Shown here: piece by piece, positions 1,419-33,320 of the stretch
Position numbering within the stretch: the stretch's first letter is position 1
How the letters are laid out: every line of letters starts with the position of its first letter
Assembly: GCA_907163375.1 (NCBI GenBank)
Contig: CAJQUW010011250.1
Location: forward strand, 1 to 64,000
Length of the DNA stretch: 64,000 nucleotides
Source of the DNA: Prostheceraeus crozeri
Taxonomy: Eukaryota; Platyhelminthes; Polycladida; Euryleptidae
Reading direction: 5' to 3'
The notes under the pieces: generated by a model
The model's input: the letters and a program-made list of their open reading frames with translations, nothing else
Database searches by the model: none
Told to the model about the DNA's origin: nothing
Position numbers and translations under genes: made by a program

Positions 1419-3907
1419 TAGGGTTTAATCCCGGTACCGGTACGGAACCGGTTCCATCTACAATTCGGTAAATACCGGAACCGGTTCCAAGTCAATTGGT
1501 ACCGATTCCCTGGAAAAAGCAGATGGTCGCGTTGTTCGATGACGACAGCCATCTCACGACATCCAATGAGAACCAAGCTCCATCAATCACCGTCTGAAAT
1601 CAGTGCTATTGAGTTAATTGTTTAGAGGAAGTCTAAAAATAGATCTGAGTTCATCACATCTTATTCTAAGAAAAGCGCAAAACAACGTTTGATCCACGGA
1701 ATATTTTCATTCGGTCACTCCATCCATGGCTAGTCGATTGAATTCCTCAGCTGTATGGGAGTACTTCTCTCGTCAAAGGAAAGATTGTGCACATTGTCAT
1801 AAATGTTCAAAGTTGATCAGACACAATTCTGGATCTACAAGTGGAATGCTTAAGCATTTGAGGAAAGTACACAACATTCTGAATTGCGCGCAAGAAACGT
1901 CCGATATAAGCCAAGCAAGCGGTCCTCCTCAGAAAGCTTTAAGGCGAGACTATATTACCTCATTTATACCAAAGAAGGAAAGTCTTGAACGAATACTATC
2001 CAAATTGATCGTAATTGACGGATTTTCTATCAATTGTGTTTGCAAAAGTGAGTCTATTTGTAATTCTCTAAACAGAGATGGATATAATCTTCCGAGGAAT
2101 CCGTCTGACATCATGACTTTTACTTCACTCATACGCTTCTAAAATTCGTCACAATTTGCAAAGTGCTTTTGAAGAGAAAATTAAAAAAGGTGAGCGATTC
2201 TCCTGTTCCTTTCATGAATGGACTAGTGGCACCGGACGCCGCTACTTGAATATAATTTTGCATGGCAACGATGAGTCGATGTGGAACCTGGGATTGTGTC
2301 GAATTTCGTCAGAAAACTTGCTTTCAACGATTAATCAGTGTTTCAGTGATTATAATCTCAATCTGCAACATGACTGTGTAGCATTTATATGTGATGGAGC
2401 AAGCGTTAACGTAAAATTTGGAAAACTTTGTGAAACTGACTTGCAACTTTGTTATTCCCATGCCATTCATTTATTTGGCTGTCGCAAATGTGTTGTGTAA
2501 GTCCAACCAACAATCAATGGTTCAGACTGCTACCGACGATGATGAGAACACTGATTCTGACAGTGAAGATCAAGCACACAATTGTGACGCCGATTTTGAC
2601 TTTGACGATAACAGCTTGTTCACTTGTGAATTATCGGATGATTACAAATCTGTTGTTGATAATGTGAGCAAGGAATGCAAAATATTTCGAAGTGGCAACA
2701 ATTTGCAACTACTGCAGAGATATACGATGGAAGAGTTCGATACTGAGCTCCAGCCTCTGCTTGATATGAAGGTCAGGTGGAATACTATTGAAACAATGCT
2801 AGTACGATATGTAAAATTGCGGCCATTGTATTCTAAAAGCTTGCGTTGATTCAAAAAGGCAGACCTTAGTAACTGATGTTGATATGGAGCTTGTACAATC
2901 ACTTATTGATGTGCTGACACCGATCAGACTCGCAACTGAAGCACTTTGTCGTCGAGATTCTACGTTGTTGTCTGCTGAAGGAGTACTACATTTTTTGTTC
3001 AACAGTTTGCACAGTCTCAAAAGCGGATTAGGTTCTCGTTTCTATGATTTCTTGTTTGTTTGTGTCAGTGAGCGTCCCAATGTTAACATTGTATCATTGA
3101 TCATGTTTCTAAATGGTTCAAATTCTCTTGAACGCTCATCCTTGGACGTTGCATCAAAAAATGCGATTAACAAATGTGCGCTCAAGTTTTTAACGAAGTT
3201 TCATGGAAATGAAGATGTGGAGGTTTCTGATGATCATCCCAGTGACACTGCTGAGACTCCGAGCGTGAAGCCTGTCTTGAGTGAGAACTTGAGTCTCCAG
3301 GAGCGGCTTCAGCAAAGTATTGCTGCATATTCACCTGGACAGTTAAAACGTGGTCTAGTTTCAAATGTTGACACAGAGTTTCAGTTATTTCAAAGAAGTG
3401 GTGAACTAACACATCGCTTGAAATTGCTGCTTCAGAAGTCATTGCTGACTATCAGACCAACTTCGGTAGATTGCGAGCGTTGTTTTTCAACAGCGGGAAA
3501 TTTTTGTCGAAAAATAAGATCACGACTTAGCGATCGATCGCTGAATACGCTTATGTTCCTAAAACAAAACATTATCTAAGCGTTGGATGTACTGATGGGT
3601 TCTGTTAATTGGTGTGTTCTCCATTAACTAATTCATTTTTATGATAACTGAATATTTTTTTGTTCGCGTCAACTTTAATATAGCACAATTCGTATACCAC
3701 TTCTACTTTCAATACCTGTTCCCAATCAATCACAACCTTAAATAACTGGCCATATCCATCTGGATGAAACCTACAATTCAACAGAAAATCTGATTAGCTT
3801 GTGTTAAATACTTTGGAAGCATTGGTACCGGAACCGGTTCTTGCAAACTGGAACCGGATTCGGTACCGGAACCGGTTCTTTTAAATTCGGGAATATGTTA
3901 AACCCTA
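1419..3907 (+). mobile_element. hAT-superfamily DNA transposon, complete ends, dead copy
   Basis: The element starts with TAGGGTTTAA (1419-1428) and ends with its exact inverse (3898-3907). It is flanked on both sides by GTGTAAAG (1411-1418 and 3908-3915), an 8-bp target duplication as hAT elements make. Subterminal clusters of GGTACCGG and GGAACCGGTTCC lie inside both ends (about 1430-1487 and 3823-3880) and are probable transposase binding sites. The transposase inside is broken. The length of 2489 bp is normal for an autonomous hAT. The perfect duplication shows a real insertion that has not been rearranged since. Confidence 0.9.
1726..3579 (+). pseudogene. hAT transposase, frameshifted
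   Basis: The gene is split over several frames. 1726-2142 carries a BED-type zinc finger (CAHCHKCSKL, then HLRKVH). 2156-2500 carries the start of the RNase-H-like core (HEWTSGTGRRYLN, ICDGASVNVK). The next part continues in the frame of 2418-2849, and 2884-3579 ends with the hATC dimerisation region (RPTSVDCERCFSTAG, RSRLSD). Frame changes lie near 2140, near 2475 and between 2849 and 2884. The position that usually holds Asp before E-W-T-S is His (codon 2213-2215), so a catalytic residue is probably lost too. The family is ZBED-like hAT. It cannot make an active protein without repair. Confidence 0.85.
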
Positions 3908-6721: not shown

Positions 6722-8949
6722 TTAACCCTTCTACTGCGCTGCTAAAAAAATCACACATTCTGCGCACATAGAGACAAAATGTCTCGGGTATGTTTATTGG
6801 AAAAAATGAGTACATGAAAGGCCATCTTGGCTAGATAAGTGTAAATATAACACGACACATTACCGAGCGGCATGAATGATAAAGGATTACTCCGGTAAGT
6901 CGTGTGAAACACAAATAGATCCTTTGTTTGAATGGTCATTGCAAACAAATTTGTGACACATCACACAAAATCCGCGAACTTGATTTCGTTTCTCGCACAT
7001 ATGGCATCGTCCTCGTTCAGGTTGATCTCCACGCGCGGCAGGTACCTCGTCATTTGCCTGGGGAGACTTCACGCCACATAAGTCCATCGCAATTCTCACG
7101 GAAGAGTGAAGTTTCACCTCCACGGAACGTCGCCAGATGTGAGGCTTCATGAGGGCTTCTGCCAGATCTTTGAGAAAAAGTCGACGTTTAGCAAGATTTC
7201 TCCGGTTCCAATCGGGATTGTTCGTCATCCATACCACAAAACTGTTCCAACATGCCACATTCAACATGTTCGTGAAAAGTTTTGTCGGGTATTTGCGTGT
7301 TTGACGATTGCAGCTGTAGGTGTTGGTAGTCATATCTATGGTATCCACAGCACCTTTCTTTGAATTGTAATCCAAGATCAATTTTGGTTTCCGCTCCTCT
7401 CCATCGGAAATGATAGCGTCGTGGTGAAGTGAGGAAAGTAAAATAACTGCTTTCCTCTTCTTTGGCACGTAAGAGCACAGTGTAAGCTTTTCAGTGAAGC
7501 CAAATGTCGAGGAATGAACTTCTCGCTGAAAGGTTCCTTGGAAACTTGGTGGAATCTCCGGCTTGTTACTGCGCAAAGTTCCCATCAAGGTGAGTCTCTT
7601 TTCCAATAAATTGTTCGCAAGAGGTACACTCGTAAAAAAATTGTCGGTCGTTATATTTCGCCCTGACTGATAGATAGGGCGGCATAAGTCCATTACAACT
7701 CGGCTAGCTTGGCCAACTTCTGGCAGATTTCCTTCTTTTCCGAGATAAATTTGGGCATTGTAAAAGTAGCAGGTGTCCGAATCCGCCAGAACCCAAATCT
7801 TTATGCCGTACCGGTTTGGCTTTGATGGCATATAAACGCGGAAGGGGCAACGGCCGCGAAATCCGACAAGCATTTCATTAATGGTCCCATTCGGACCAAG
7901 AGAATAACACATTCTGCATCTGCTGAGGAACATTTCCCATATTTCACGAAATGCACTTAGTTTGTCCCGTTGCCGTCGATCCTCCCGAGTATTTTTGTCG
8001 TCAAAACGCAAAAACTTCAAAATAACTTTGAACCTGTTGAGAGACATTGTGGCGCGTAGTTTTGGACGACCATCGTCTTCTGACCAGAGCTCTTCATAGC
8101 TTTCGTTTCCAGATTTGTGGATTCCAATATAAATTAGACAACCAATGAAAGCCTTGAATTCTTCGATGTCTAAGTCCCTCCATCTTCTTGCATACCAACT
8201 GTCCTCATCAGAATCTTCAATAAACTGATTAGCATGTCTATTCGTGTAATCTATCACCTTGTTGAGCAATTCATCTTGAACGAAAAGCTGGAAAGTTTCT
8301 CTAATGGAGTCGACTCGCGTAATTGACGTCGGACCACCCGCTGTGCGAAGCACGTTTTCTCGACGAAAGCGTCCACGTTGACTTGGAGGATCGCGATTCC
8401 ATAAGAAACCATTCCTTCCTCGAAGACCCCTTGTCGTGATAAAGCCTCCTCGGCATCGTCTCCATCGTCGTCGCTCTCACTGTCTTCTTCATTACTGGAT
8501 TCCTCTGTGGCGTGTTCTACCTGATCTTCTTCATCGCTACTCTCATCCATTTCTTCTTCTCTCTCTTCTTGAATCAGATGTTCTACCAGTTGAAATACTG
8601 TGGGTGCAGCTTGTCTTCGGGGTCTTGATGATGAAGCCATTGCAACTACAATGCTCGCGCTAGCAACAGAAAATGACACGACGCAAGACACAAGGCTGTG
8701 CGCTAAATTGTCGCCTGCGTGAGTTACATTCCTGCAGTGTGATGTGATTGACTGTCCATGTCTTTGTTCAAGCGTGCGCACAGCGAATCAGAGTGCACTT
8801 AGCGAATTTTTCTTTTGTCAGCTTGTGACCAACATTTAGAAAGGAAAAGTCACCAAAAATGGAATAATTTGAGAAAGTTTTTAAAAAGTTATGAACAAAA
8901 TATGAAAACCCGAGACATTTTGTCTCTATGTGCGCAGTAGAAGGGTTAA
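6722..8949 (-). mobile_element. piggyBac DNA transposon with TTAA duplications
   Basis: TTAA stands at 6722-6725 and 8946-8949. The terminal repeat CCCTTCTACTGCGC (6726-6739) is exactly inverted at 8932-8945. A 28-bp inner repeat containing TGCGCACATAGAGACA lies at 6761-6788 and, inverted, at 8909-8936. The inner repeat is separated from the terminal repeat by a 21-nt spacer on one side and overlaps it on the other. Such asymmetric spacing is characteristic of piggyBac ends. The transposase gene is on the minus strand and is damaged. Confidence 0.93.
6887..8640 (-). pseudogene. piggyBac transposase, frameshifted, first catalytic Asp replaced
   Basis: The minus-strand start at 8640 opens an acidic N-terminal region (DESSDEEDQ, NEEDSESDDDGDD). 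The frame then shifts near 8400-8440, and the DDE core runs in the frame that ends at 6887. Recognisable motifs are EFKAFIGCLIYIGIHKS, GFRGRCPFRVYMPSKPNRYG, TTDNFFTSVPLANNLL and KKGAVDTIDMTT. A C-terminal Cys/His cluster (CHMCEK, FCVMCHKFVCNDH) follows. The first catalytic Asp of the family, normally in 'DEMLVGFRGR', is Asn here (codon 7877-7879), while the later two Asp are present. The frameshift and this change together make it inactive. Confidence 0.92.
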
Positions 8950-9063: not shown

Positions 9064-9440
9064 AGTAGTAAGAAAACGGCGAACACCAGATAGCGCAAGA
9101 TGGCCGCCATCGCTGAGTCCCCCCCCCCTCTGGTCCGCCAGTGTCGTGATGTGCCGGCGAGGTTCTGCTGCCGTCCCCCCCCCCTCTGGACCGTCAGTGT
9201 GTGAGTCTTGGGTGTCTGTGTGCGACCGCCTGGTGGACTTGGGCGACCGTCTAGGTTGACGTGGGCGACCGTCTAGGTTGTCTTGGTTAACCTGTGGTAT
9301 GTTTTGGTGTGTAGTGTCCAAACGCGGCCTCGGATGTGAAAACGGAGGCCAGATTCGGATTCAGCGTGAAATTCTGCATCTGTATGGTGAATTTGAAAGC
9401 AATCGGAGATAAAAATTTTTCGCTGACGTCCCCCCCCCCT
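9064..9440 (+). repeat. Polinton left terminal inverted repeat, outer part
   Basis: The segment matches 32931-33320 on the other strand with few differences. It contains poly-C runs after CTGAGTC and GCCGTC, and a 22-bp subrepeat (GGGCGACCGTCTAGGTTGAC core) present twice here and three times in the right copy. These ends are the sites on which the integrase would act. Confidence 0.92.
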
Positions 9441-9581
9441 CTGGACAGCTTGCTTCGATCTTGGCTTCTAGTGGACGGATTTTGTCGAGTGAGGTGTCAT
9501 TTGAAAGCTAAAAGTGAGACAAATTCACTGAAACAAACGGCTTGTTCCTATCTGTCTTCGTTTACATGTGAGACGCCATTT

Positions 9582-10546
9582 AAGATTTTAGGTCGGAGCT
9601 CACCTGAAAAAATCCTAAGTGTCAGAGTGACTTTGTATGGGAAAAATTAAAAATTTTCCAAAGTGTGGAATTTCGACCTGGGACCTTTACCAAAGTTTGT
9701 TTCATCAAATTTCGCTGACCTCCCCCCCCCTTTGTTCTAACTTTGGTTCTAGTGGACGGATTTTGTTCGTTCGACTTGCATTGGAAAGAGGATGAAACAC
9801 TGCTCGACCGCATTTTTCGTTGCGAGTCAATCGGAGCAGCCGTTCAAAAGTTAGAGCGGTTACAAGATTTTAGGTCGGAGCTCACCTGAAAAAATCCTAA
9901 GTGTCAGAGTGACTTTGTATGGGAAAAATTAAAAATTTTCCAAAGTGTGGAATTTCGACCTGGGACCTTTACCAAAGTTTGTTTCATCAAATTTCGCTGA
10001 CCCCCCCCCTTTGTTCTAACTTTGGTTCTAGTGGACGGATTTTGTTCGTTCGACTTGCATTGGAAAGAGGATGAAACACTGCTCGACCGCATTTTTCGTT
10101 GCGAGTCAATCGGAGCAGCCGTTCAAAAGTTAGAGCGGTTACAAGATTTTAGGTCGGAGCTCACCTGAAAAAATCCTAAGTGTCAGAGTGACTTTGTATG
10201 GGAAAAATTAAAAATTTTCCAAAGTGTGGAATTTCGACCTGGGACCTTTACCAAAGTTTGTTTCATCAAATTTCGCTGACCCCCCCCCTTTGTTCTAACT
10301 TTGGTTCTAGTGGACGGATTTTGTTCGTTCGACTTGCATTGGAAAGAGGATGAAACACTGCTCGACCGCATTTTTCGTTGCGAGTCAATCGGAGCAGCCG
10401 TTCAAAAGTTAGAGCGGTTACAAGATTTTAGGTCGGAGCTCACCTGAAAAAATCCTAAGTGTCAGAGTGACTTTGTATGGGAAAAATTAAAAATTTTCCA
10501 AAGTGTGGAATTTCGACCTGGGACCTTTACCAAAGTTTGTTTCATC
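9582..10546 (+). repeat. Left subterminal tandem array, about 280-bp units
   Basis: AAGATTTTAGGTCGGAGCTC starts units at 9582, 9864, 10143 and 10422 (periods 282, 279, 279), the last cut off at 10546 just before the first promoter. Each unit carries a C-run of about 9-11 followed by TTTG. A related segment at about 9430-9581 ('cttgcttcgatcttggcttc') joins it to the outer repeat. Open frames in the units are only by-products of the repetition. The same units recur in both orientations at the right end. Confidence 0.93.
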
Positions 10547-10562
10547 AGCTTGATGTTATTGC

Positions 10563-13095: not shown

Positions 13096-13452
13096 ATGGC
13101 GAAACGTAAAATGACGAAACGTAAAAGTCAAAAGTTTTCTTCAGCCATTCAAGCTCTCCGACGAATGAAAGCAAATCAGCGATACAATGCTATACGACAT
13201 GCTAACGATAAATTCATTTGTGAAATTATTTCTCATGTGAGAAAGTTGAGGACGAAGAAATTAGCACCAAAACAACGAAAGTTACTTAAGCGATATGCTA
13301 CAAAATTACGTTTCATCTCCAATCCTAAAGTCGCCCTTCAAAGAAAGAGGAAAACTCTAACACAAAAGGGCGGTTTCCTTTCAGCAATACTTCCAATGAT
13401 AGCTCCTGCCGTGGGCAACCTATTGGGTAATATCTTTGGCTCTAAGCGTTAA
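13096..13452 (+). CDS. Small basic virion-core protein, Polinton/adintovirus type (118 aa)
   Basis: The protein is strongly basic (MAKRKMTKRK, KKLAPKQRKLLKRYATK) and ends with a Gly-rich hydrophobic segment (GGFLSAILPMIAPAVGNLLG). This layout of basic helices followed by a 'QKGGFLxxxLP' tail is widespread in Polintons and adintoviruses and is compared with the adenovirus core peptide. It probably binds packaged DNA or destabilises membranes. It sits directly upstream of the packaging ATPase, with which its 3' end nearly abuts. Confidence 0.65.
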   Translation: MAKRKMTKRKSQKFSSAIQALRRMKANQRYNAIRHANDKFICEIISHVRKLRTKKLAPKQRKLLKRYATKLRFISNPKVALQRKRKTLTQKGGFLSAILPMIAPAVGNLLGNIFGSKR

Positions 13453-13483
13453 TTATGCAAATGTTGAGTCTCAAAGTAATAAA

Positions 13484-14101
13484 ATGGATTTCAGACTTCA
13501 ATGCGATAAAGTTCTGACTGTATCAGGTCCATCTCATGCAGGTAAAACTGTTTTCACGCTGAATTTATTGGATAAAAGAAGGGAGTTGTTTAGGGAACCT
13601 ATCAATCGAGTGATTTGGTGTTATGGTATTTATCAACCGTCGCTGTTTCAGGAATTGCAAAGTCGCAACTTTATTCGACATGAAGGAATTATTGCAGTGG
13701 ATAAACTTCAGTCTAATGATGTTGTTGTATTGGATGATTTATTAAAAGAAAGTAAGAATTCAAAAGATGTTACAGATATGTTCACTCGCGCAGCACATCA
13801 TAAAAGGTGTTTTATCATCTATATTACACAAAATTTGTTTCCTGATGGAAAAGAAGCTCGTACACGAAACCTGAATACACACTATTATGCTATTTTCAAG
13901 AATCCGCGAGATAAAAGTCAATTTGAAATTTTAGCGCGACAAGTTGCACCCAGAGGATCAAAAGCCTTAATTGAAATTTTTCAAGCAGCTACTGAAAAAC
14001 CATACGGTTACTTATTCATTGACTTTACGCAAGAGTGTCCGGAAGAATTTAGATTTCGAAGTGATATTTTGAAAACTCCCATGATTATCTACAAACTATG
14101 A
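13484..14101 (+). CDS. FtsK/HerA-type genome-packaging ATPase (205 aa)
   Basis: ATG at 13484 is taken as start because the P-loop GPSHAGKT follows 14 residues later; the open frame extends slightly upstream without a Met. Walker A is GPSHAGKTVF and Walker B is DVVVLDDLL. The later segment RCFIIYITQNLF, with the polar residue Q after a beta strand, fits the sensor of FtsK/HerA ATPases. Length and motifs match the adenovirus IVa2/A32-like packaging ATPases of Polintons, which pump DNA into the capsid. The stop overlaps the next start as ATGA (14098-14101), so the two are likely on one transcript. Confidence 0.9.
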   Translation: MDFRLQCDKVLTVSGPSHAGKTVFTLNLLDKRRELFREPINRVIWCYGIYQPSLFQELQSRNFIRHEGIIAVDKLQSNDVVVLDDLLKESKNSKDVTDMFTRAAHHKRCFIIYITQNLFPDGKEARTRNLNTHYYAIFKNPRDKSQFEILARQVAPRGSKALIEIFQAATEKPYGYLFIDFTQECPEEFRFRSDILKTPMIIYKL

Positions 14102-15007: not shown

Positions 15008-16057
15008 ACGTTTGAAGTCAATCTATTATGATGTAAAACATCCGGCAGGATTTGCATCTATCAAGAAATTATCAAAGCGAGTGGTCTTCCACAATCACAA
15101 GTGAAACGATGGTTAAAGGGTCAGGCTACCTATACACTCCACAAACAAGCGAAAAAGAAGTACCGCACCCGCCATTATATTGTTCATGACATCGATGAAC
15201 AGTGGCAAGCAGATTTGTGCGATGTTGCCTCCATTTCAAAACATAACTCGGGCAATAATTTTATTTTAACCGTCATTGATATTTTCTCGCGTTATGCGTG
15301 GGCTCAACCTTTAAAAACTAAAGAAGGGAAAGGAGTAGCAAAAGCATTCCAAACAATTTTTCGAGAAGGTCGCATTCCAAAAAGAATTCAGAGTGATCAA
15401 GGAAAAGAGTTTGAAAATCAGCATGTGACAAGATTATTTGAGAGCCATGACATTGAGTTGTTTAGTGTAAAGAGCGCTTATAAAGCTGCACTCGTTGAAC
15501 GTTTTAATCGCACATTAAAAAATCGCTTGTGGCGACATTTTACTGCCAACTTGACACAAAATTGGACAAAGGTTCTACAAGATACACTCCATGCCTACAA
15601 TCACTCTATCCATCGTTCTATTGGACTCAGACCAGTAGATGTAAATGCTGACAATGTAGATAAAGTGCGCGAATCATTCCAACGTAAACGCACTCATGTG
15701 AAAAGTGATGTGAAAATTGGCGATAAAGTTCGTATCTCAAAAGTGAAAAGTGTTTTTGCTAAAGGGTACCTTCCGAATTGGACAGAGGAGGTATTTACAG
15801 TATCAAGGATTAATCAAAAAGACTCTCCGACCACCTACAAGTTGAAAGATTACGATAATGAAGAAATTGAGGGTAGCTTTTACCGCGATGAGATTGAGGT
15901 AGTCACTGAAAGTGAAACATATTTGGTAGAGAAAATCATTCGATGTAAAAAACGGCAAGGTGAAGAATGGTGTCTTGTTAAATGGACTGGTTATCCTTCA
16001 AGTATGAACTCTTGGATGCGTCGTGCCGACATCTTTCATCTAAGTGATCGACAGTGA
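14970..16057 (+). CDS. Retrovirus-type integrase with chromodomain, one frameshift
   Basis: The N-terminal segment (ERLKSIYYDVKHPAGF) is read from an ATG at 14970. The rest is read in the frame that runs to 16057, so one base is missing or shifted near 15055-15065. From the second-frame Met at 15101, the rve core has D38 (EQWQADL), D99 (SDQGKEF) and E133 (LVERFNRTLK). A basic SH3-like region follows (KIGDKVRISKVK), then FAKGYLPNWTEEVFTV. A C-terminal chromodomain lies at residues 274-313 (YLVEKIIRCKK, CLVKWTGYPSSMNSW). It inserts the element's DNA by acting on the terminal repeats; the chromodomain may read histone marks. All three catalytic acids are present. Confidence 0.9.
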
Positions 16058-16556: not shown

Positions 16557-17834
16557 ATGGAGTGTAAAACTTCCGGTTTTTGTTTGTTCGATCAACAAGC
16601 CATACAGACAGATATTCTTAGTTCAAGTATTGTAGATTATCATCCTCGAACAGCTGAGAATGCTGGCCCCATTGAATTTGTTATTCCTGGTGGTAGTGAT
16701 GACTACATAGATTTGAGTTATGCGATGCTTGATTTGAGGTTTAGAATTCAGCAAGCAGATGGAACTGCTATTGACGATGCACATAAAGTTGGACTGAACA
16801 ATTTACCATTGACTACATTACTTCGTGATGTTTCTCTAACGATTGGAGAGCAGCAAGTGGAAGGTGGTCAAAGCGATTATCCCTATAAATCATATTTCAA
16901 TCATGTATCACAGTTTCATCCAGCAGCACAAAAAAGTCATATGGAAGCCATGGGATGGTACAGAGATGAAGCAGGAAAATTTGATGTTGAAACAAACAGT
17001 GGCTTTGTAAAGCGATCTGCTATGATTAAAGATAGTAGAGTATGTCAGCTATATGGTCCGCTGAATTTAGACTTCTTTAGACAGTCAAAGTTTTTACTGT
17101 GTAATACCAGCATGCGACTCAAGCTGACATTGAATAAGCCTGAATTTGCGCTGAATGCATTTGCTAAAGTTGACAATTTTAGAATTCATGTGGAAGATAT
17201 TGCACTTTACATTCGTCGAGTAGTACCGAATCCAAGTGTCATTAGAGGGCATGCTGAAGGCCTTAACCGCCAAAATGCCATTTACCCCATTCAGCATACA
17301 AAGCTTCTCACCTTTACAATTCCGAAAGATCAAAAGAGTTTCATGAAAGATGGCCTCTTTCCATCGGAAGCACCGAAGCTCCTCATGGTGGCAATGGTTG
17401 AAAATGATGCATTTAATGGTAATATAAAGAAGAATCCTTTCAATTTTAAACACAATCAGTTAAGTGAAATTGCTTTACGTGTAAATGGTGTGAGTCATCC
17501 TGGTCCACCCTACAAACCAGATTTTGCTTCAGATCAATTTATGCGCAGTTATGTTGATTTTATGGATGTTTTTGGCTTTTACAATACGGATGACACCAAC
17601 GGACTGACTATGAAAGAGTTTAAGAGTGGATATACTATTTATGCATTTGATTTGACTGCTGACAGCGATATTAGTGCACCCTATCGTCAAGCGAACGTGC
17701 CTCATAATATTCGTTTGGATTTAACGTTCAAAAGAACACTACCTGAGACGATCAATGTATTAATTTATGCAGTCTTCGATTCAAATATTGAAATTACAAA
17801 GTATCGTGACGTGATTCTTCAGTATAATCGTTAA
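16557..17834 (+). CDS. Major capsid protein, Polinton hexon-like (425 aa)
   Basis: The sequence follows the family often annotated in invertebrates as F54H12.2-like. It has an early beta-rich block (PIEFVIPGGSDDYIDLSY), the 'LPLTTLLRDVSLTIGEQQV' and 'YPYKSYFNH' region, 'QLYGPLNLDFFRQSKFLL', then 'KNPFNFKHNQLSEIALRVNG' and a C-terminal 'SGYTIYAFDLTADSD'. This family is the double-jelly-roll major capsid protein of Polintons, which builds the icosahedral shell. The frame is intact and its stop overlaps the protease start (TAATG at 17832-17836). No damage is visible. Confidence 0.85.
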   Translation: MECKTSGFCLFDQQAIQTDILSSSIVDYHPRTAENAGPIEFVIPGGSDDYIDLSYAMLDLRFRIQQADGTAIDDAHKVGLNNLPLTTLLRDVSLTIGEQQVEGGQSDYPYKSYFNHVSQFHPAAQKSHMEAMGWYRDEAGKFDVETNSGFVKRSAMIKDSRVCQLYGPLNLDFFRQSKFLLCNTSMRLKLTLNKPEFALNAFAKVDNFRIHVEDIALYIRRVVPNPSVIRGHAEGLNRQNAIYPIQHTKLLTFTIPKDQKSFMKDGLFPSEAPKLLMVAMVENDAFNGNIKKNPFNFKHNQLSEIALRVNGVSHPGPPYKPDFASDQFMRSYVDFMDVFGFYNTDDTNGLTMKEFKSGYTIYAFDLTADSDISAPYRQANVPHNIRLDLTFKRTLPETINVLIYAVFDSNIEITKYRDVILQYNR

Positions 17835-18295
17835 TGAGTTGGTTGACTGCTGACGATATTAAGACTAAAGTGCAGCGTAATGCAGACGAAGCGACGTTGA
17901 AAGCTTTCGATAATGTCTATTCACTCGATACCTTACCACCTGCAGTAAATCACTATCCCATCTTTATTGTGCTAAACACTCATTCACAGAATTTAGGCGG
18001 TGAGCATTGGAAAGCGATCTTTATTGGAGAAGACCGACGTGGTGAACTATTTGACTCTCTTGCTCAACCTCCAAATATACCAACACAGCAGTGGTTGAGA
18101 AAACATACGCGTCAATATCAGCGAAATGAACGCATACTACAACATCCACTTTCATCAACGTGTGGTGCTTTTGTACTGTACTTCATCTTAAGACGTTTAC
18201 ATGTATCTCGATTTGTATCTGTTATTCAAAACTTTTCATGTAATCCATCCTCTAATGAAAAAATGATTTGTAAGTTCTATCATGATTTGAAATAA
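17834..18295 (+). CDS. Adenain-like cysteine protease (153 aa)
   Basis: The catalytic set is visible: H58 (GGEHWKAIFI), D74 (ELFDSLAQPP), Q103 (ILQHPLSS) and C110 (SSTCGAFVLYFI). The seven-residue Gln-to-Cys spacing is as in adenovirus protease (C5 family). The enzyme matures capsid and core proteins during assembly. It starts inside the capsid gene's stop codon, and its own stop lies within a poly-A signal, which closes the plus-strand block. Confidence 0.9.
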   Translation: MSWLTADDIKTKVQRNADEATLKAFDNVYSLDTLPPAVNHYPIFIVLNTHSQNLGGEHWKAIFIGEDRRGELFDSLAQPPNIPTQQWLRKHTRQYQRNERILQHPLSSTCGAFVLYFILRRLHVSRFVSVIQNFSCNPSSNEKMICKFYHDLK

Positions 18296-18326
18296 AAACA
18301 TCATGTTGGAAAAATTGTTTTTTATT
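18291..18326. terminator. Convergent poly-A signals
   Basis: AATAAA on the plus strand at 18291-18296 overlaps the protease stop. AATAAA on the minus strand (18326-18321) overlaps the stop of the TBP-like gene. The two transcripts therefore end back to back within about 35 bases. Confidence 0.7.
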
Positions 18327-19188
18327 TTACAATCCGCTGGGTACGTACATACTCAATGAGATAGTCTAGGATCATATTTGCTTGTACATGAGATTTTAGT
18401 CCAGTAATGATCACTTTACTATTATGAAAGATTGCCACATGCACAGGTAACCAACAACTAATGAGAGCTGCAGGAAAAAGTTCGGGTTCATAACACAAAC
18501 TGTAACTGCTGGTACGAATCTTCAAAAATGATAGACTGTCACTCAATTGAGTAGAGATCACCATATTGTCCACAGTCAGATTCGACATCACACACCTCTC
18601 CCTCTTCCATATCCGACGTAGTAGTCTTTGTAGCTCTAAGCGCATTGACTGCGCGATGAATGAGAAAGGGCGCCGAGAATCTGTACAGTCCCATTTGGGA
18701 AGAGTTGAAGATTCCGTGAATTGTTCATCTTCACCACTAACATTTGAGGACGACCCGGGTAATACTTGCTGTTTGGAAGCTGTTGGTGTAATGTTGTGAG
18801 ATCGATTTTGGTGTAGAGTCTGAAGCGACGGAGAATGTTGACGATGGTGTAGCGATGGCGCTTCATGATGAAAGAATGAGTAAATTGAGCGATGTACCTT
18901 CCTTTTATACTTTTCCCAACTACCTTGATGAAATGTGAAGTTAGTATGAAGTTGGGAATGATAGAGTTGAATTCGCCGATTGTTGACGCGCAACCAGATG
19001 CGATTTCCAATACGTGAATGTCTTTTCATATAGAAGTATTTTAAATCCTTCATGATATGATGTAGAGATTGAAAATGGCGATAAGATAAAGCAAACTCTC
19101 TTCTCACATTTCCAGTTGAATCTTTGAAATAGACGTTTCGATCATGATCCGTTTCAATACGTTGTAGGGAATCTAATTTCCAACTCAT
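18322..19188 (-). CDS. TBP-repeat protein with PC4-like N-terminal domain (288 aa)
   Basis: The C-terminal 90 residues (199-288) read like one repeat of TATA-binding protein: VDNMVISTQLSD, then YEPELFPAALI, then VHVAIFHNSKVIITGLKSH. YEPELFP and the 'IFxxxKVxxTGxK' turn are TBP signatures. Only one of the two TBP repeats is present, so DNA binding as a saddle would need a dimer or host partners. Residues 1-113 form a separate domain (RNVYFKDSTGNVRREFALSY, FQSLHHIMKDL) resembling the PC4/p15 coactivator and paralogous to the neighbouring gene. A Ser/His/Gln-rich linker joins them. Probable role: directing host RNA polymerase II to element promoters. The TBP call is strong, the PC4 call tentative. 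Confidence 0.75.
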   Translation of the reverse strand: MSWKLDSLQRIETDHDRNVYFKDSTGNVRREFALSYRHFQSLHHIMKDLKYFYMKRHSRIGNRIWLRVNNRRIQLYHSQLHTNFTFHQGSWEKYKRKVHRSIYSFFHHEAPSLHHRQHSPSLQTLHQNRSHNITPTASKQQVLPGSSSNVSGEDEQFTESSTLPKWDCTDSRRPFSFIAQSMRLELQRLLRRIWKRERCVMSNLTVDNMVISTQLSDSLSFLKIRTSSYSLCYEPELFPAALISCWLPVHVAIFHNSKVIITGLKSHVQANMILDYLIEYVRTQRIVK

Positions 19189-19210: not shown

Positions 19211-19567
19211 TTAAGATTTGCATAGTAGGGCGATGAACTCACGACGAATAAATGTCATGATGGAGCGATGTATGTATCTTCTATACTTCTCCCAATTGTA
19301 TTTGCGAAATGAGAAACAGTTTGCGGAATGAGAATGGTAGATTTGAATTTCATTTCTGTAATGTTGAAGCCAAACTTGATCACCCAGGGAGATGAATCTT
19401 AATGTTTCAAAATATTCCAAATCCCTCATGATATCATTGAGGTTGACAAATTGTCGCCATGTTAATGTAATTCCTCTTGATGTATGACCATGAGAATTTT
19501 TGAAATGTACGTTTCCATCACGATCAACTCTGATATATTGTAGAGAGTCCAAAATCCAAGTCTTCAT
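19211..19567 (-). CDS. Stand-alone paralogue of the PC4-like domain (118 aa)
   Basis: ATG at 19567 is the first Met codon in frame. The protein aligns along its whole length with residues 1-113 of the preceding TBP-repeat protein: LDSLQ, DRDGNVHFKNS against HDRNVYFKDS, FVNLNDIMRDLEYF against FQSLHHIMKDLKYF, and NWEKYRRYIHRSI against SWEKYKRKVHRSI. It is thus a tandem duplicate without the TBP part. Resemblance to PC4 single-strand-DNA-binding coactivators is by pattern only. Its start lies 35 bp from the oppositely directed structural gene at 19603, so the two 5' regions overlap. Confidence 0.65.
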   Translation of the reverse strand: MKTWILDSLQYIRVDRDGNVHFKNSHGHTSRGITLTWRQFVNLNDIMRDLEYFETLRFISLGDQVWLQHYRNEIQIYHSHSANCFSFRKYNWEKYRRYIHRSIMTFIRREFIALLCKS

Positions 19568-19602
19568 GATGTTATGCAAAGTTGCAGATTAGCAATATAA
19601 AA

Positions 19603-22864: not shown

Positions 22865-25800
22865 TTATGCTAAGACGTCTCCTGAATGTGGTAGTGTGAG
22901 TTTAATTCTTTTGGGTGGTGGTATGTTTGTGTCAGGATGTCCATGTGGAAGAGATATGTTGTGTTCTAGCCAGCACCTCTTATCCTCCCATGCTGAAAGC
23001 GCCCGTTTCCTAAAAGTATGAGTTTTGATCTCATGCGACTTAGATTTTAAGATTGTCATATTGACAAACGTTATATTTTTATTTCTATAGGCTTTCCTGA
23101 AATTCTTATGTTTCATGTTAGAGACCAATGATCTTGATATGCCTTTAGCGCGCTTAATGCTATCATCACTATCCTTTAATTTCATAGAATACATTTTAGG
23201 GCGGAGGAGAATCATTTCAGCTATCTCCTTCCCTGCTGTCTCATCCTTAAAGCAGCCAAGTTTTGCCTTATTTTTGATGGAGTATAGTGGATGATTAGCA
23301 GGATAATTTGATGTATCAAAATATCTTTCTAAAGATTTTCCTACTTCATTAAAATTTAAATCTTTTTGAGTGGTAATACCTAAAAAGAAACTATCTGTGT
23401 CACCACCCAACAAACGAACCTCTTTTACGAGAGGACACGGTTTTAGTATTTTATAGAAGAGTTGATACATTTCAAGCTTGGAGTAATCTAGAACAGCTTG
23501 ACCAATATAGATGGGTTTGCACAACTCAACTTCAGATTTTATCATTTTAATACCTACAAGATCCTCATCGATTATGTCTCTATCGATGAATAGAGGTGAT
23601 GAGATCAATTTGTGATACTTTTGATCATCATTAACTAGTTTGTAGTTTACGCGCTTTCTAACATCCTCCATCGTCTTACCAAATAGACTGTTGTTCTTAT
23701 ATTTATAAAAATCTTTTTCAAAATTATTTTGGGCTAGTGCACGTTTCTGACTGTTACTATCTATGTAGGGTTTGAGGAAGGCTTTCTGTCTAAATTTAAT
23801 AATGCGGTGAACTCTTTTTAAAATCATGCCCATTTCTAAATAAAATTTTAAGATGCTAAAGTGGACTAGATAGTTTTCCTTATCATATTGAGTGAGTAAA
23901 AGTTTGCGGCAAGGCTTATACTTGGGTTGTCCACATGATTCTAAATCTTTATGAAATTGTTTCATAAAGTCGGAAAACATATCTTTACTCACTTCACCTG
24001 ATTCGGGTGCGAGTGGAAAATCTACGGTTTTATGTTTAATATTATTTGGATAGATTAGATCTATCTCAAAATAATATCCCCATTCACCTTCATCTGGAAT
24101 TGCTAGTATGTTGGAAGGGTTGGAGAAATGTTGAATTTCACTATCATCTAACCAGCTAAACTCAGAGTGAGGTAGCGGTTTGGATAATGAACTACCATAC
24201 AAATTATTTTGGTCATAATACTTCAGATGAGTCTGGTCATTACCTACTATTTTTGATTTTAACCTATGTTTATTTACAAATGTGAGACCACCGCGAATTC
24301 CTCGCTCAAATAAATTATACATCTCTGGATCTTGTAAGAGATGAATGGTCTCACCAGTCATTTTAAAAGCAGACTTAAATGACATGGCTGGCAGACTGAC
24401 AAAGTGGACGGGATCTAACTTATCTTCTTCTAATGCCACTCGTCGAAACTCCTGAAATACATCAGCCAGCAAAAATACATCTAACTTAAGGTAGGCAATC
24501 ATATATTCACCAAATGTATGGCAGTCAAATTTTATCCATGCATCTTGTGCATGATCATAATCTTCGGTCTTACATTCTGCGCCGCTCAAATCATTTTTAA
24601 ATTTATCTATGGGCGGAAGAGAAGTCTCGCCGAGTTTACTAATTGCATCAAAATATGCATATGGAAAGACTCCTTTCCGTGTGATGACTTCATCGGTTAG
24701 ATTTGGATATTGTTTCTTAAGATTTTGTGTTAGTGGAAGAGACTTTAGATTTTGCACGAGAGAGGCCAGTGATGCAGTCATAAATTGGTAGGAATCTAAA
24801 AATTTTATATCAAAATAGACCGTCTTATTTTCTTTAGTTTTATCGACAGGCACTTTTGCTGTCATGGCCATAAACTTCTCTCTCGTTTGTGCTATTACAT
24901 CAAGCTTCCACTCTTTCATTTGACCTAAACCTCCTTTTATTATCATATGGCTGTCGTAGCCCTTGAAATTATGGAAAATGACGGGTAATGTACGCCGCTT
25001 CATCCTCAGCGAAAAATTACATTTTGAACAGAGTGCGTTTCTAAATTTACCAGTGATGTGGTCATGGTCGCGCACTTTCTTAATCTTATCATCGTCAAAT
25101 GTTTTCCTACATTTGGGGCAAACGTTGCAACTATCAAATTTTGCTTGATCATCTGCTGTCATATGCAATGATCTGCGATAGAGTTCACCATCATACTTTT
25201 GTTGAAATTTTACAGCCTGTTCGAGGAATTGTAGGAATTGGTAAATACAATCCTCACCTTGCCAGACGTGCATTTTATTTTTTCTATTTTGGAAATGGTC
25301 ATGCCATACTTCATAGCAGGAAATGGCTGCTGGTCGATGGATGTTATCATCGATATAACATTCGATGTCAGCATAGATGACACGAAGAGGACTTAGTTCA
25401 TCGCCATTCTCTCTATATGAAAACTCCTTATCTTTGGGCATGCGTTCCATTTGCAGTTTACCTCGCTTACACCACTCATAATGAGTTTCAAATTTGTTTT
25501 TACTCCTAAAGTTCCGAATGCATCTGTCACAGTAATAAATCTCTGATGAGGTAGAATTTCTTAAGTGGTGGTATAAGCGAGAGATTTTGGGAATGCCGCA
25601 GTAGTGCCATTCCTCACTATCATCCTGTCTTACTAATAAAAGGTTGACAACATGATCATAACAACTCGAACGCGAGTTGTAGCGCACACCCTTCAATCCC
25701 TTTTCCCAAACATGGAGAACTATTTTAATGTTGTTCAATTTTTCAAATTTTTCTATATCTTTAATTTTCATATCGTCACTATTACAGTCATCGAAGTTTA

Positions 25801-26839
25801 ATTCATTCTCCCACTGCCTATAGCTATATGTACGATTTCGATTCGCATTGATGTCATTATAGTGGAGAATGGAGAGGACAGCATATTTAAAACATTGCGA
25901 TTCGCAATCGACATTGATGACTGCTGTTTTGTTTTTTAAATTTTTTGGAAGTTTAAAGGAGCCTCGACCACTATGATTTCCTAATAAACTGATTTTAAAT
26001 AAGGCGGACTCAATGCCGTCAAAAATGAGACCGCTATCGCGCTCGTTAAATTTATCAATATTTAATTTTAATCCTTGGATGTGAAAATTTATCCAAGACT
26101 CATAGTCTACAACCTCGGTTGCAGGAGAGGAGGGTATGTGAAACTCCAACCTCTCTATTATTTGTCCAGTATGGTGGTCGATTTTTACATATTTTATTTT
26201 AAGATAGATGAGCGCCTTCATCCTAAAATTGTCTAAATTGTTGAAGAGCGCTTCTATCAATGATGAATTTTGATGAAACCATTCCTCAAAGTTAGCAATG
26301 GTTTCTGAGGAGTCCATCTGGTAGTTCCTCACTAAATTATTTATGGACACTTCAGTGAGTTGGATAGAGGAGGTACCGTTGGTGTAGCTATCGTTCGTGT
26401 GTGTATGTTGAAGTCTGTGCGAAGATAGTTCAAAACGTGTCTCGAAAGACTGAGCGCACAAGTCGCAAGAAAAGGAGACGACGTTAACAGAATCATCCCC
26501 ACCTCCGGAGATTGATGCCGGCTTAGGTCGACAAACACCTCGCTTGATGTGTCGGGTGAGATCCCATTTCCTCGTGAAGATGTGCCCACAGTCAGCACAT
26601 TCCCACTCGTTACCATGTCGCGACAGTTCTGAGCTGGAACTCACATCGCCTGAAAGAGAAATCATTCTATCATCTCTGTTCAAGCCTCAGTGTATTGTTG
26701 CAACCTACCTTGACTCAATAACTCTAAACTTTCCTCGAGAAGGGAGGGCGTTGGTGATGAAGTTGATGCCTGAAATTGAGGAAGATGCTATGAACCACAC
26801 GTTTGAGGGAGATGAGAGAGGAAATCTTCAACTTACCAT
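22865..26839 (-). CDS. Protein-primed family-B DNA polymerase, spliced (1282 aa)
   Basis: The minus-strand CDS is read as complement(join(22865..26649, 26709..26769, 26837..26839)). Exon 1 is just ATG followed by GTAAGT. Introns of 67 nt (26770-26836) and 59 nt (26650-26708) end in AATTTCAG and TCTCTTTCAG, and the frame is preserved. The N-terminus has two C2H2 fingers (CADCGHIF, CDLCAQSF). The exonuclease motifs are ADIECY (about 25365), HNFKGYDSH (about 24960) and YLKLDVFLLADVF (about 24470). An endonuclease-VII-like Cys/His module (CPKCRKTF, VRDHDHITGK) lies between the first two. Polymerase motifs A (YDQNNLYGSSL), B (NSLFGKTM) and C (GGDTDSF) are all present. It replicates the linear element from a protein primer. 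Confidence 0.95.
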
Positions 26840-27763: not shown

Positions 27764-28302
27764 GGGATAGCAATCGACTGCGATCCATGTGTAAAGAGCT
27801 TGTTAGACTATGGAAGAGAGAAGTGTGTTATGTTGCGTGTGGCGCGTGAGTGTCCTCCCTTTCATTCCATTCATCAATTCGTCTCATTGATAGAGACAGG
27901 TAGAACTCATGGCTCTCATAACGTATGCAATGGAAAGTTTTAGGCAACCTTCGACAGTTGGCTAAATGTCGCCCTGGCGCGAATGCATACTACGTTGAGA
28001 CAGAGGCAATCACTTGCAAACATGACGCAGAGAGGTTTAACAAGATTGACCATTGCCGAATGTCCCTTGCGGTATACATAGCTACGGGTTTCACCGCCGC
28101 CCTTTACAGGAACGCCCGTCGAAAGGAAGTATTACACCGAACTTCATTTGCAACGTTCAAGTTGACTGATAGCAGATTCAACTTAATGATAGTATTCGCC
28201 AGTCCGAAGACTGCCCAGGGCAAACCGCGTGGAGGTTCTATCATGTCTTGCCCCATGGTGGCCCTTAAGAGAGCCGATGGTTCATTCTCGGGATTAGGCT
28301 GA
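27764..28302 (+). pseudogene. Duplicate 5' copy of the spliced Cys-rich gene, no start codon
   Basis: 27764-28294 is nearly identical to 28648-29169. The same 98-nt intron can be seen (27846-27943, GTGAGT ... GTTTTAG), and exon 2 stays open to 28302. Upstream of the duplication the frame meets a stop without any ATG, so this copy lacks its first codons unless it is spliced to another exon. It carries nine extra bases (GTGTGGCGC) directly before the splice donor, adding three codons. It is probably a pseudogene or a donor of alternative exons. Confidence 0.65.
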
Positions 28303-28554
28303 CTATTGGCTTGAATAGTCAAGGGGTATGACGCTTAGATTGTCATAAACCCTATACCGCCGAGGTCGTACTGGTGCATCCGGCACCTTTCGGATGCGGG
28401 TGGTATTTGGAGTCCACACCTCATCCGTCCAAATGATCCTCTTGATCTTCCCCTTCTTCTCATCCTCATCCCACTCGTCGAGGATGACGAACTCGGGAAT
28501 GGCGTTATCTTCATCAATGAAGACGGGAATGTTGTCGGCAGATGTGGCTTCCAT
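28303..28554 (-). CDS. Small acidic protein between the duplicated units (83 aa)
   Basis: Starts with ATG at 28554; a TATATAAG on the minus strand lies about 45 bases upstream (28602-28595). The protein reads acidic in the first half (VFIDEDNAIPEF, LDEWDEDEKKG) and ends with a basic-aromatic tail (RPRRYRVYDNLSVIPLD). It has no recognisable domain. It lies in the unique 350-bp segment separating the two duplicated gene copies. Confidence 0.5.
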   Translation of the reverse strand: MEATSADNIPVFIDEDNAIPEFVILDEWDEDEKKGKIKRIIWTDEVWTPNTTRIRKVPDAPVRPRRYRVYDNLSVIPLDYSSQ

Positions 28555-28594
28555 CGTGACTTCAAATTGAATGAGAAGCGCTACAATCTTCTAG

Positions 28595-28602
28595 CTTATA
28601 TA
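28595..28602 (-). promoter_or_regulatory. TATA box for the small acidic minus-strand gene
   Basis: CTTATATA on plus gives TATATAAG on minus, placing a start of transcription near 28570 and a leader of about 15 bases. The same AT stretch lies only 12 bases from the plus-strand ATG at 28615, too close to serve as a normal TATA box for that gene. Confidence 0.5.
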
Positions 28603-28614
28603 GGGTTTTCAACA

Positions 28615-29171
28615 ATGAATTGCTCAACAGCGAATCAGAATGCTTCAGGGATAGCAATCGACTGCGATCCATGTGTAAAGAGCTTGTTAGACTACGGAAG
28701 AGAGAAGTGTGTTATGTTGCGTGAGTATCCTCCCTTTCATTCCATTCATCAATTCGTCTCATTGATAGAGACAGGTAGAACTCATGGCTCTCATAACGTA
28801 TGCAATGGAAAGTTTTAGGCAACCTTCGACAGTTGGCTAAATGTCGCCCTGGCGCGAATGCATACTACGTTGAGACAGAGGCAATCACTTGCAAACATGA
28901 CGCAGAGAGGTTTAACAAGATTGACCATTGCCGAATGTCCCTTGCGGTATACATAGCTACGGGTTTCACCGCCGCCCTTTACAGGAACGCCCGTCGAAAG
29001 GAAGTATTACACCGAACTTCATTTGCAACGTTCAAGTTGACTGATAGCAGATTCAACTTAATGATAGTATTCGCCAGTCCGAAGACTGCCCAGGGCAAAC
29101 CGCGTGGAGGTTCTATCATGTCTTGCCCCATGGTGGCCCTTAAGAGAGCCGATGGTTCATTCTCGGGATAA
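28615..29171 (+). CDS. Spliced Cys-rich protein of unknown function (152 aa)
   Basis: The CDS is read as join(28615..28720, 28819..29171). The 98-nt intron begins GTGAGT and ends AGTTTTAG, and splicing keeps the frame. Exon 1 gives MNCSTANQNASGIAIDCDP and CVKSLLDYGREKC. Exon 2 gives LRQLAKCRPGANAYYVETEA, HCRMSLAVYIATGFTAALY and SIMSCPMVALKRADGSF. The whole gene body is duplicated upstream at 27764. The recent duplication suggests selection for dosage or a rearrangement of this end of the element. I do not recognise a family. Confidence 0.6.
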
Positions 29172-31310: not shown

Positions 31311-32484
31311 AGTGAAAAAATTCCTAAGTGTGGGAGCTCCAGTGTGGTGAAAATTTTGAAAAATTTAAAACTTCCGAATTTTGACCTGGGACCTTTACCA
31401 AAACATTTTCCATCAAATTTCGCTGACGTCCCCCCCCCCCTCTGGACAGCTTGCTTCGATCTTGGCTTCCAGTGGACGGATTTTGTCGAGTGAGGTGTCA
31501 TTTGAAAGCTAAGAGTGAGACAAATTCAGTGAAAGAATCGGCTTGTTCCTATCTGTCTTCGTTTACATGTGAGACGCCATTTAAGATTTTAGGTCGGAGC
31601 TCACCTGAAAAAATCCTAAGTGTCAGAGTGACTTTGTATGGGAAAAATTAAAAATTTTCCAAAGTGTGGAATTTCGACCTGGGACCTTTACCAAAGTTTG
31701 TTTCATCAAATTTCGCTGACTCCCCCCCCCCCTTTGATCTAACTTTGGTTCTAGTGGACGGATTTTGTTCGTTCGACTTGCATTGGAAAGAGGATGAAAC
31801 ACTGCTCGACCGCATTTTTCGTTGCGAGTCAATCGGAGCAGCCGTTCAAAAGTTAGAGCGGTTACAAGATTTTAGGTCGGAGCTCACCTGAAAAAATCCT
31901 AAGTGTCAGAGTGACTTTGTATGGGAAAAATTAAAAATTTTCCAAAGTGTGGAATTTCGACCTGGGACCTTTACCAAAGTTTGTTTCATCAAACTTTGAA
32001 ATTTCACTGACTCCCCCCCCCCTTTGATCTAACTTTGGTTCTAGTGGACGGATTTTGTTCGTTCGACTTGCATTGGAAAGAGGATGAAACACTGCTCGAC
32101 CGCATTTTTCGTTGCGAGTCAATCGGAGCAGCCGTTCAAAAGTTAGAGCGGTTACAAGATTTTAGGTCGGAGCTCACCTGAAAAAATCCTAAGTGTCAGA
32201 GTGACTTTGTATGGGAAAAATTAAAAATTTTCCAAAGTGTGGAATTTCGACCTGGGACCTTTACCAAAGTTTGTTTCATCAAATTTCGCTGACTCCCCCC
32301 CCCCTTTGATCTAACTTTGGTTCTAGTGGACGGATTTTGTTCGTTCGACTTGCATTGGAAAGAGGATGAAACACTGCTCGACCGCATTTTTCGTTGCGAG
32401 TCAATCGGAGCAGCCGTTCAAAAGTTAGAGCGGTTACAAGATTTTAGGTCGGAGCTCACCTGAAAAAATCCTAAGTGTCAGAGT
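31311..32484 (+). repeat. Right subterminal repeats in direct (left-end) orientation
   Basis: A diverged unit (31311-31430) and the 'cttgcttcgatcttggcttc' segment (about 31450) come first. Units starting AAGATTTTAGGTCGG follow at 31583, 31866, 32156 and 32438. Their orientation equals that at the left end, opposite to what a simple terminal inverted repeat demands here. The last unit is cut at about 32484, where an inverted unit begins. Confidence 0.88.
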
Positions 32485-32930
32485 GAGCTCCGGCCTAAAA
32501 TCTTGTAACCGCTCTAACTTTTGAACGGCTGCTCCGATTGACTCGCAACGAAAAATGCGGTCGAGCAGTGTTTCATCCTCTTTCCAATGCAAGTCGAACG
32601 AACAAAATCCGTCCACTAGAACCAAAGTTAGATCAAAGGGGGGGGGGAGTCAGCGAAATTTGATGAAACAAACTTTGGTAAAGGTCCCAGGTCGAAATTC
32701 CACACTTTGGAAAATTTTTAATTTTTCCCATACAAAGTCACTCTGACACTTAGGATTTTTTCAGGTGAGCTCCGACCTAAAATCTTGTAACCGCTCTAAC
32801 TTTTGAACGGCTGCTCCGATTGACTCGCAACGAAAAATGCGGTCGAGCAGTGTTTCATCCTCTTTCCAATGCAAGTCGAACGAACAAAATCCGTCCACTA
32901 GAACCAAAGTTAGATCAAAGGGGGGGGGGA
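32485..32930 (-). repeat. Right subterminal repeats in inverted orientation
   Basis: From GAGCTCCGGCC at 32485 the 280-bp units run on the minus strand, with CTT of the unit start at about 32502 and 32784. They join the outer right terminal repeat at about 32930. Together with the preceding block they form a large palindrome with a centre of about 23 bases at 32460-32483. Confidence 0.88.
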
Positions 32931-33320
32931 CGTCAGCGGAAAAATTTTTATCTCCGATTGCTTTCAAATTCACCATACAGATGCAGAATTTCACGCTGAA
33001 TCCGAATCTCACCTCCGTTTTCACATCCGAGGCCGCGTTTCGACACTACACACCAAAACATACCACAGTTTAACCAAGACAACCTAGACGGTCGCCCACG
33101 TCAACCTAGACGGTCGCCCACGTCAACCTAGACGGTCGCCCAAGTCCACCAGGCGGTCGGACACAGACACCCGAGACTCACACACTGGCGGACCAGAGGG
33201 GGGGGGGGACGGCAGCAGAACCTCGACGGCACATCACGACACTGGCGGACCAGAGGGGGGGGGGGACTCAGCGATGGCGGCCATCTTGCGCTATCTGGTG
33301 TTCGCCGTTTTCTTACTACT
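32931..33320 (-). repeat. Polinton right terminal inverted repeat, outer part
   Basis: Inverted counterpart of 9064-9440, ending CTTACTACT at 33320. It has three copies of the 22-bp GGGCGACCGTCTAGGTTGAC-type subrepeat against two on the left, plus scattered substitutions and longer G-runs. The two ends have therefore not been recently homogenised. Confidence 0.92.

Follow-up and report, generated by a model that had tools for sequence, protein, structure and literature searches.

The window analysed here is a stretch of 64,000 nt from Prostheceraeus crozeri (GCA_907163375.1, contig CAJQUW010011250.1, positions 1-64,000). It contains a Polinton (Maverick) element in which the gene for a TATA-binding protein (TBP) overlaps the gene for an unrelated protein, here called FamA. 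The features of the element are as follows.

9064..10547 (+), inverted-repeat arm at the left terminus; its inner part holds a 279-nt tandem array
13049, 13454, 16061 and 19573, and 19217 (-), ATGCAAA sites near gene ATGs
13436..14101 (+), A32-type packaging ATPase, a weak match (Pox_A32, E 0.02, below cut-off)
15101..16057 (+), retroviral-type RVE integrase with chromodomain (PF00665, E 5.2e-11; PF00385, E 4.7e-7)
16557..17834 (+), probable major capsid protein
17834..18295 (+), Ulp1/adenain-type cysteine protease (PF02902, 19.5 bits, just below the cut-off of 20.7)
18322..19188 (-), 288-aa open frame, N-domain and linker of the long form of FamA (FamA-long) running into the TBP C-lobe, joined via a copy-specific frame change
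18322..18640 (-), second TBP repeat (C-lobe), containing YEPELF (PF00352 and solved-TBP matches)
18542..18673 (-), acidic tail at the C-terminus of FamA-long, read in the frame of FamA (FamA profile positions 174-217 in the window ORF 18542-18724)
18636..19010 (-), +1-frame ORF overlapping the 288-aa frame, TBP N-lobe (repeat 1) from the ATG at 18866-18864 (PF00352, E 1.8e-9)
19211..19579 (-), FamA paralogue of the short form (118 aa, with its ATG at 19567), directly upstream of the 288-aa ORF
22865..26683 (-), probable protein-primed DNA polymerase B with an endonuclease VII domain (motifs NNLYG and DTDS)
31349..33320 (-), inverted-repeat arm at the right terminus, likewise holding a tandem array

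The locus belongs to a Polinton. Its integrase scored over the cut-off, and the best matches of the protease and the packaging ATPase were sub-threshold. The polymerase was recognised by NNLYG and DTDS, which we take to be motifs of protein-primed DNA polymerase B. The ORF at 16557..17834 (+) had no Pfam or PDB hit and presumably encodes the major capsid protein, as judged from gene order. No polymerase or capsid hit was obtained for the element ORFs in Pfam, PHROGs or PDB. The inverted arms begin with AGTAGTAAG at 9064 and 33320, and tandem arrays with a unit of 279-290 nt were located at 9582-10547 and 31583-32486, the copies on the right being nearly perfect inverted copies. Polintons make a 6-bp target duplication; no target duplication of 5-8 bp was found at the offset of the arm starts (9064/33320). 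In its integrase and terminal inverted repeats, and in its putative protease, ATPase and polymerase, the element resembles the Polinton/Maverick gene set as listed, without a TBP, in the available text of PMC4028283, which contains none of the terms TATA, TBP and PC4. Outside the element, a hAT-type dimerisation domain (2884-3579 (+)), preceded at 1726-2142 by an ORF for a BED zinc finger, is what remains of another transposon. Just left of the element lies a nearly full-length transposase at 6887-8353 (-) (PF13843, E 6.8e-81), which we take to be of the piggyBac type.

An uninterrupted ORF of 288 aa spans 18322-19188 (-), as the first-pass annotation had recorded, and the TBP signature noted in it proved to be real. 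Residues 204-280 matched PF00352 (E 6.8e-7, 29.5 bits; cut-off 22.9) and also solved TBPs (E 1.3e-11 and weaker), and TBP was found again in repeated profile searches. That annotation had read the ORF as a TBP with one repeat only, fused to a second domain, and neither point held. The repeat thought to be missing lies in a different frame of the same DNA (18636-19010 (-)), and the window thus contains two PF00352 repeats in two frames. The supposedly fused halves are separate proteins in relatives and two overlapping ORFs in other copies of the same genome. A protein search with the 288-aa ORF returned six relatives of two kinds. P0002-P0004 (216-222 aa) matched the first ~62% of the ORF and shared an acidic C-terminal tail, and P0005-P0007 (177-202 aa), which carry TBP, matched its last part (38%). 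Two PF00352 stretches each were found in P0005, P0006, P0007, P0020 and P0047, with the whole proteins over the cut-off; the two-repeat TBP of the relatives is ~180 aa long. In the window copy the acidic tail of FamA-long is out of frame with the 288-aa ORF. The existence of two separate families in the relatives, together with PF00352 matches in two frames, indicates that the fusion is a frame-change product: the 288-aa ORF consists of the front of the FamA-long gene and the back of the TBP gene, joined by the frame change of the window copy. We are nearly certain of the resulting anatomy, in which two genes overlap on one strand and a complete two-lobed TBP starts inside FamA, with its N-lobe in the +1 frame.

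FamA-long is ~217 aa in length, and its 14 full-length database members end at one alignment column (SIE or a close variant). The short form has ~118 aa and is without the linker and tail. All 17 long members examined combine a basic N-domain (+8 to +18) with an acidic stretch (-4 to -11) in the last 30 residues. No match to FamA was found in Pfam or among solved structures, and no relatives in IMG/VR. The N-domain had been likened to the coactivator PC4. The Pfam search of the window ORF and its relatives gave no PF02229 hit for this domain, and neither PDB profiles nor hhalign gave a confident match. When the N-domain was compared with six PC4 sequences by hhalign, the probability was 6.6% for the whole domain, 11.8% for its first half and 0.5% for its second, with scores of 19 for both the whole domain and the first half against 14.9 and 14.0 for the best of 60 column shuffles each. 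The in-register similarity spans ~25 residues in the first half of the domain, and the two halves did not match each other (0.1%). A search of the genome with PF02229 returned three matches, all of PC4-type sequence and none of them FamA. FamA differs from PC4/Sub1 (PF02229) in its unmatched second half and its tail and linker, with no significant sequence match, and the label PC4-like is no more than a reasonable guess. With its basic domain and acidic tail, FamA could be a DNA-binding partner. Since TBP is ancient and the short FamA has no tail, the tail is probably the later, overprinted reading frame.

The 2.05-Gb assembly contains at least 150 PF00352 matches, all over the cut-off (150 scored of 10,982 first-look candidates). 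Four of these matches appear, by our reading of the sequences, to be host exons; the best is an exon of host TBP, and another host locus is presumably TBPL1-like, which would point to an animal host. Twenty element loci of 8-10 kb each were fetched from the PF00352 list and chosen for variety. FamA and TBP matches were present in all 20, and all 20 held further proteins of the window's element. The loci fell into three lineages. For copies of the window type, identity to the window in neighbour genes was for the most part 84-100%; exceptions included L027 (polymerase 69% identical) and L018. The relative lineage (L009, L011 and L028) showed 27-67% identity to the window. In the second lineage (L010, L015, L016, L020, L021, L023, L024 and L026), the sequence read around the FamA-TBP pair gave matches to ORF204, ORF176 and the polymerase only; matches to a capsid protein, a protease, an ATPase or an integrase were not found in these eight copies, of ~10 kb each. 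The second lineage is possibly a capsid-less Polinton. In L018, several genes were 99% identical to the window, but the polymerase was 53% and the 463-aa gene 45% identical (L018 positions 734-2170 and 8-403); it is possible that L018 is a recombinant between lineages.

Overlap lengths were determined in eleven copies, chosen for open frames from the 20 fetched loci, with start codons picked by script. The overlap of FamA and TBP measured 329 nt in five copies, 314 nt in three, and 335, 305 and 290 nt in one copy each; earlier start codons exist in the lineage of L009 and in the second lineage, so that their lengths are lower bounds. TBP was in the +1 frame relative to FamA in all eleven copies, and both frames were open through the overlap. 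In L026, FamA was broken upstream of the overlap. We then permuted synonymous TBP codons in five copies from three element lineages. The FamA frame stayed open in 1, 0, 6, 1 and 1 of 5000 such shuffles (L022, L012, L009, L015 and L016, respectively), and the real FamA linker reading outscored all 500 scored shuffles in each of the five copies, narrowly so in L009 (35.5 vs 34.7 bits). In the reverse test, the TBP frame was open in 658-1943 of 5000 shuffles. Openness alone is therefore less informative for TBP; its real score was 100-136.5 bits as against 35-62 for the best shuffle. Both overlapping proteins are therefore under selection.

Variation among copies was examined in 30 window-type copies (29 and the window), a non-random sample in which at least six had been picked for their 292-aa frames. 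The TBP frame was intact in 28 and both frames in 19. Among variants shared by two or more copies, synonymous changes accounted for 10 of 13 where the DNA codes for FamA only (expected 23%) and for 9 of 15 where it codes for TBP only (expected 25%); the corresponding counts for singletons were 15 of 59 and 5 of 24. Singletons thus look neutral, and the shared variants reveal purifying selection on both proteins. Within the overlap, six shared variants changed FamA only, five changed TBP only and six changed both.

These comparisons also bear on whether the 288-aa product, FamA joined to half a TBP, is itself a working protein or is made by programmed frameshifting. The frame is open in the window, and fused frames were seen in five of the 20 fetched copies (L013, L018, L021, L023 and L024), as such a protein would have it, but the junction points differ between the copies with fused ORFs. 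Conservation of the FamA acidic tail and of the TBP N-lobe follows the frame of each and continues to the end of each. A DNA search for near-identical stretches gave 403 candidates, of which 40 were scored. Three of these, the window included, have the window's length of 544 nt, whereas 36 have 545 nt and one has 543 nt; 31 of the 545-nt stretches had one identical score, at ~100% identity. The comparison of lengths does not place the one-base difference. Among the 30 window-type copies, a frame-changing indel in the overlap was found in the window alone. The relatives, the other copies and the shuffle test largely rule out the fusion as a working protein, and we consider it very improbable. 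The near-identical window-type copies are very young.

The two-repeat TBP family to which the element protein belongs has 231 members in the protein database at E <= 1e-3, of which 120 were used for residue counts. Its profile aligned with the solved TBP 2z8u, presumably an archaeal TBP, over 174 of 180 positions (E 6.8e-23). Relatives of the element TBP were found neither in IMG/VR contigs nor in GTDB genomes. At least 119 of the 120 members retain each of the C-lobe residues examined that we take to lie on the DNA face, namely Asn, Val, two Phe and Thr. In the N-lobe, the position of what is presumably the first intercalating Phe of host TBP is Pro in 116 of 120, and that of the presumed DNA-face Thr is Leu, Met or Phe in all 120. 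These altered positions mean that binding to TATA by the element TBP is not assured. At five N-lobe Arg/Lys positions of the host protein, Lys or Arg is kept in 6, 3, 23, 0 and 21 of 120 members, respectively. The mean net charge is 0 in the 120 family TBPs, as compared with +4 in the host, a value reached by two of the 120; in the Prostheceraeus crozeri element types it is +3, +4 and +2. The loss of a basic N-lobe patch, by which the TBP might elude host regulators, would accordingly be clear over the 120 members and weak in the P. crozeri types.

Two glutamates, C.L3.2 and C.L3.4, are given as the TFIIB contact in the available text of PMC7221094, and from their spacing the glutamates of the YExE motif of the element TBP seem to correspond to them. 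The first is kept in 116 of 120 members, with Asp in the other four, and the second in all 120. A Phe conserved in both lobes of all 120 family TBPs probably occupies position L5.1 of that text, and the five N-lobe Arg/Lys positions are likely to represent the basic cluster of the paper. It might be argued that the TBP fold serves the element as a DNA-bending or end-binding factor in replication, packaging or integration and not in transcription. The second lineage, in which the pair lies between ORF176 and the polymerase and capsid, protease and integrase were unmatched in the ~10 kb of its eight copies, would suit such a role. The strict conservation of the two TFIIB-contact glutamates would, however, be without obvious purpose there, and we regard this reading as distinctly unlikely.

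The element TBP thus shares with cellular TBP (PF00352) its two repeats, the C-lobe DNA-face residues and the TFIIB-contact glutamates. It differs from cellular TBP in the replaced Phe and Thr of its N-lobe and in a start codon that lies inside another gene. Only 38 of 153 positions are identical to host TBP, and in a tree with only four cellular sequences the 131 family TBPs (120 from the database and 11 from P. crozeri) formed a separate clade with a support of 0.852 and a long stem of 2.28. On the last two results we reject recent capture of a host TBP.

According to the first-pass annotation, several TATA promoters were present in the element. TATA[AT]A was found within 110 bp upstream of one of 15 genes, as compared with a shuffle mean of 2.5, and a count of one was reached by 471 of 500 single-base shuffles, so that the promoters claimed were not borne out. 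An octamer-like sequence, ATGCAAA, occurs upstream of five of the 15 element genes, with TGCAAA 28-45 nt before the ATG. Any 7-mer was present in five upstream regions in one of 300 single-base shuffles. ATGCAAA is not over-represented in the window as a whole and was not seen at the gene starts of the lineage of L009. The motif may serve the element as a promoter box and is put forward here as a lead only.

The absence of TATA enrichment at the element genes would fit a different role, in which the element TBP competes with host TBP, for example by sequestering TFIIB, and shuts down host transcription. The TFIIB-contact residues are kept in the family while the DNA face of the N-lobe is altered, which points the same way. 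On the other hand, the C-lobe DNA-face residues are conserved as well, and a general repressor would presumably be costly to a multi-copy element. Shutdown of the host therefore seems to us rather unlikely.

A search of the 2.05-Gb genome with PF00382 (TFIIB) gave four matches at two loci. One locus has a complete TFIIB-like frame of 311 aa and the other is Brf1-like; from their sequences we take them to be host TFIIB and Brf1. Within ~3 kb of either locus, we detected none of the proteins of the window's element. No TFIIB was detected among the 20 window ORFs scanned; a TFIIB-like protein diverged beyond the reach of PF00382 may have gone undetected. As no TFIIB borne by the element was found, recruitment of the host factor is suggested. 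The element TBP would bind the promoters of the element, and its canonical C-lobe would recruit host TFIIB and Pol II. The changed N-lobe would alter promoter choice and may avoid the regulators of host TBP. On these comparisons of sequence, we put the host-TFIIB mechanism at slightly better than even. The whole of our reading, that an overlapping pair of FamA and TBP is present and that its TBP recruits host TFIIB and Pol II, is in our view the best explanation and probably correct. The earlier idea of a basal-factor mimic thus survives in part: that a TBP carried by the transposon may steer Pol II to the element's own genes is supported by a two-lobed protein, present in many copies, with its TFIIB contacts kept and no TFIIB found in the element, whereas there is no support for a half TBP, a fusion or TATA promoters.

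Conceivably, FamA and TBP together form a compact module for the takeover of promoters. The TBP would keep the contact with host TFIIB, its N-lobe, having lost the contacts with host regulators, would read an element-specific box, for which [T]ATGCAAA is a candidate, and the overprinted acidic tail of FamA would mimic TBP-binding peptides (TAF1, Mot1) and block host TBP. Initiation by host Pol II would thereby be redirected to the element, with both functions locked in one stretch of DNA. That all these parts apply jointly is unlikely.

Many eukaryotic dsDNA viruses are considered to descend from Polintons or to be related to them, and we know of no worked-out mechanism by which Polinton genes are transcribed inside the host nucleus. 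A Polinton TBP that is under selection and has its TFIIB contacts intact, in an element in which no TFIIB of its own was found, is a specific candidate for this role. It would also offer an example of codons shared between the N-lobe of a transcription factor that is conserved universally and a second conserved protein unrelated to it.

TBPs of large dsDNA viruses are already known. As far as the text available for each source goes, a TBP is present in 59% of mirusvirus genomes (PMC10132985), TBPs occur in mirusvirus-like elements of the Polinton-rich genome of one alga (PMC10675990), and the algal virus CpV-BQ1 carries a TBP and two TFIIBs, for which redirection of host RNA polymerase was proposed (PMC12085832). 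The portion seen of PMC7221094 reports a viral TFIIB in almost all TBP-bearing viruses, with none in poxviruses, and the first TFIIB-contact Glu as ~40% conserved in viral TBPs. Going by these partial texts, the Polinton resembles the viral TBP-TFIIB systems in having a two-lobed TBP in a dsDNA virus-like element. It differs in that the TFIIB-contact residues, often diverged in those viruses, are kept and that no TFIIB of its own was found, whereas almost all of the viruses carry one. KSHV ORF24, in the accounts available, is likewise a viral TBP-like factor for viral promoters; unlike the element protein, which matches PF00352 itself, it is described there as a TBP mimic. Text searches of the literature, covering few subscription papers and some sources in part, returned no report of a TBP in a Polinton, Maverick or adintovirus, and none that joined Polintons with PC4.

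Between the polymerase and the right arm of the window's element, two identical stretches of 300 nt were observed at 27844-29018. They are 875 nt apart, and each lies near an ORF of 123-125 aa.
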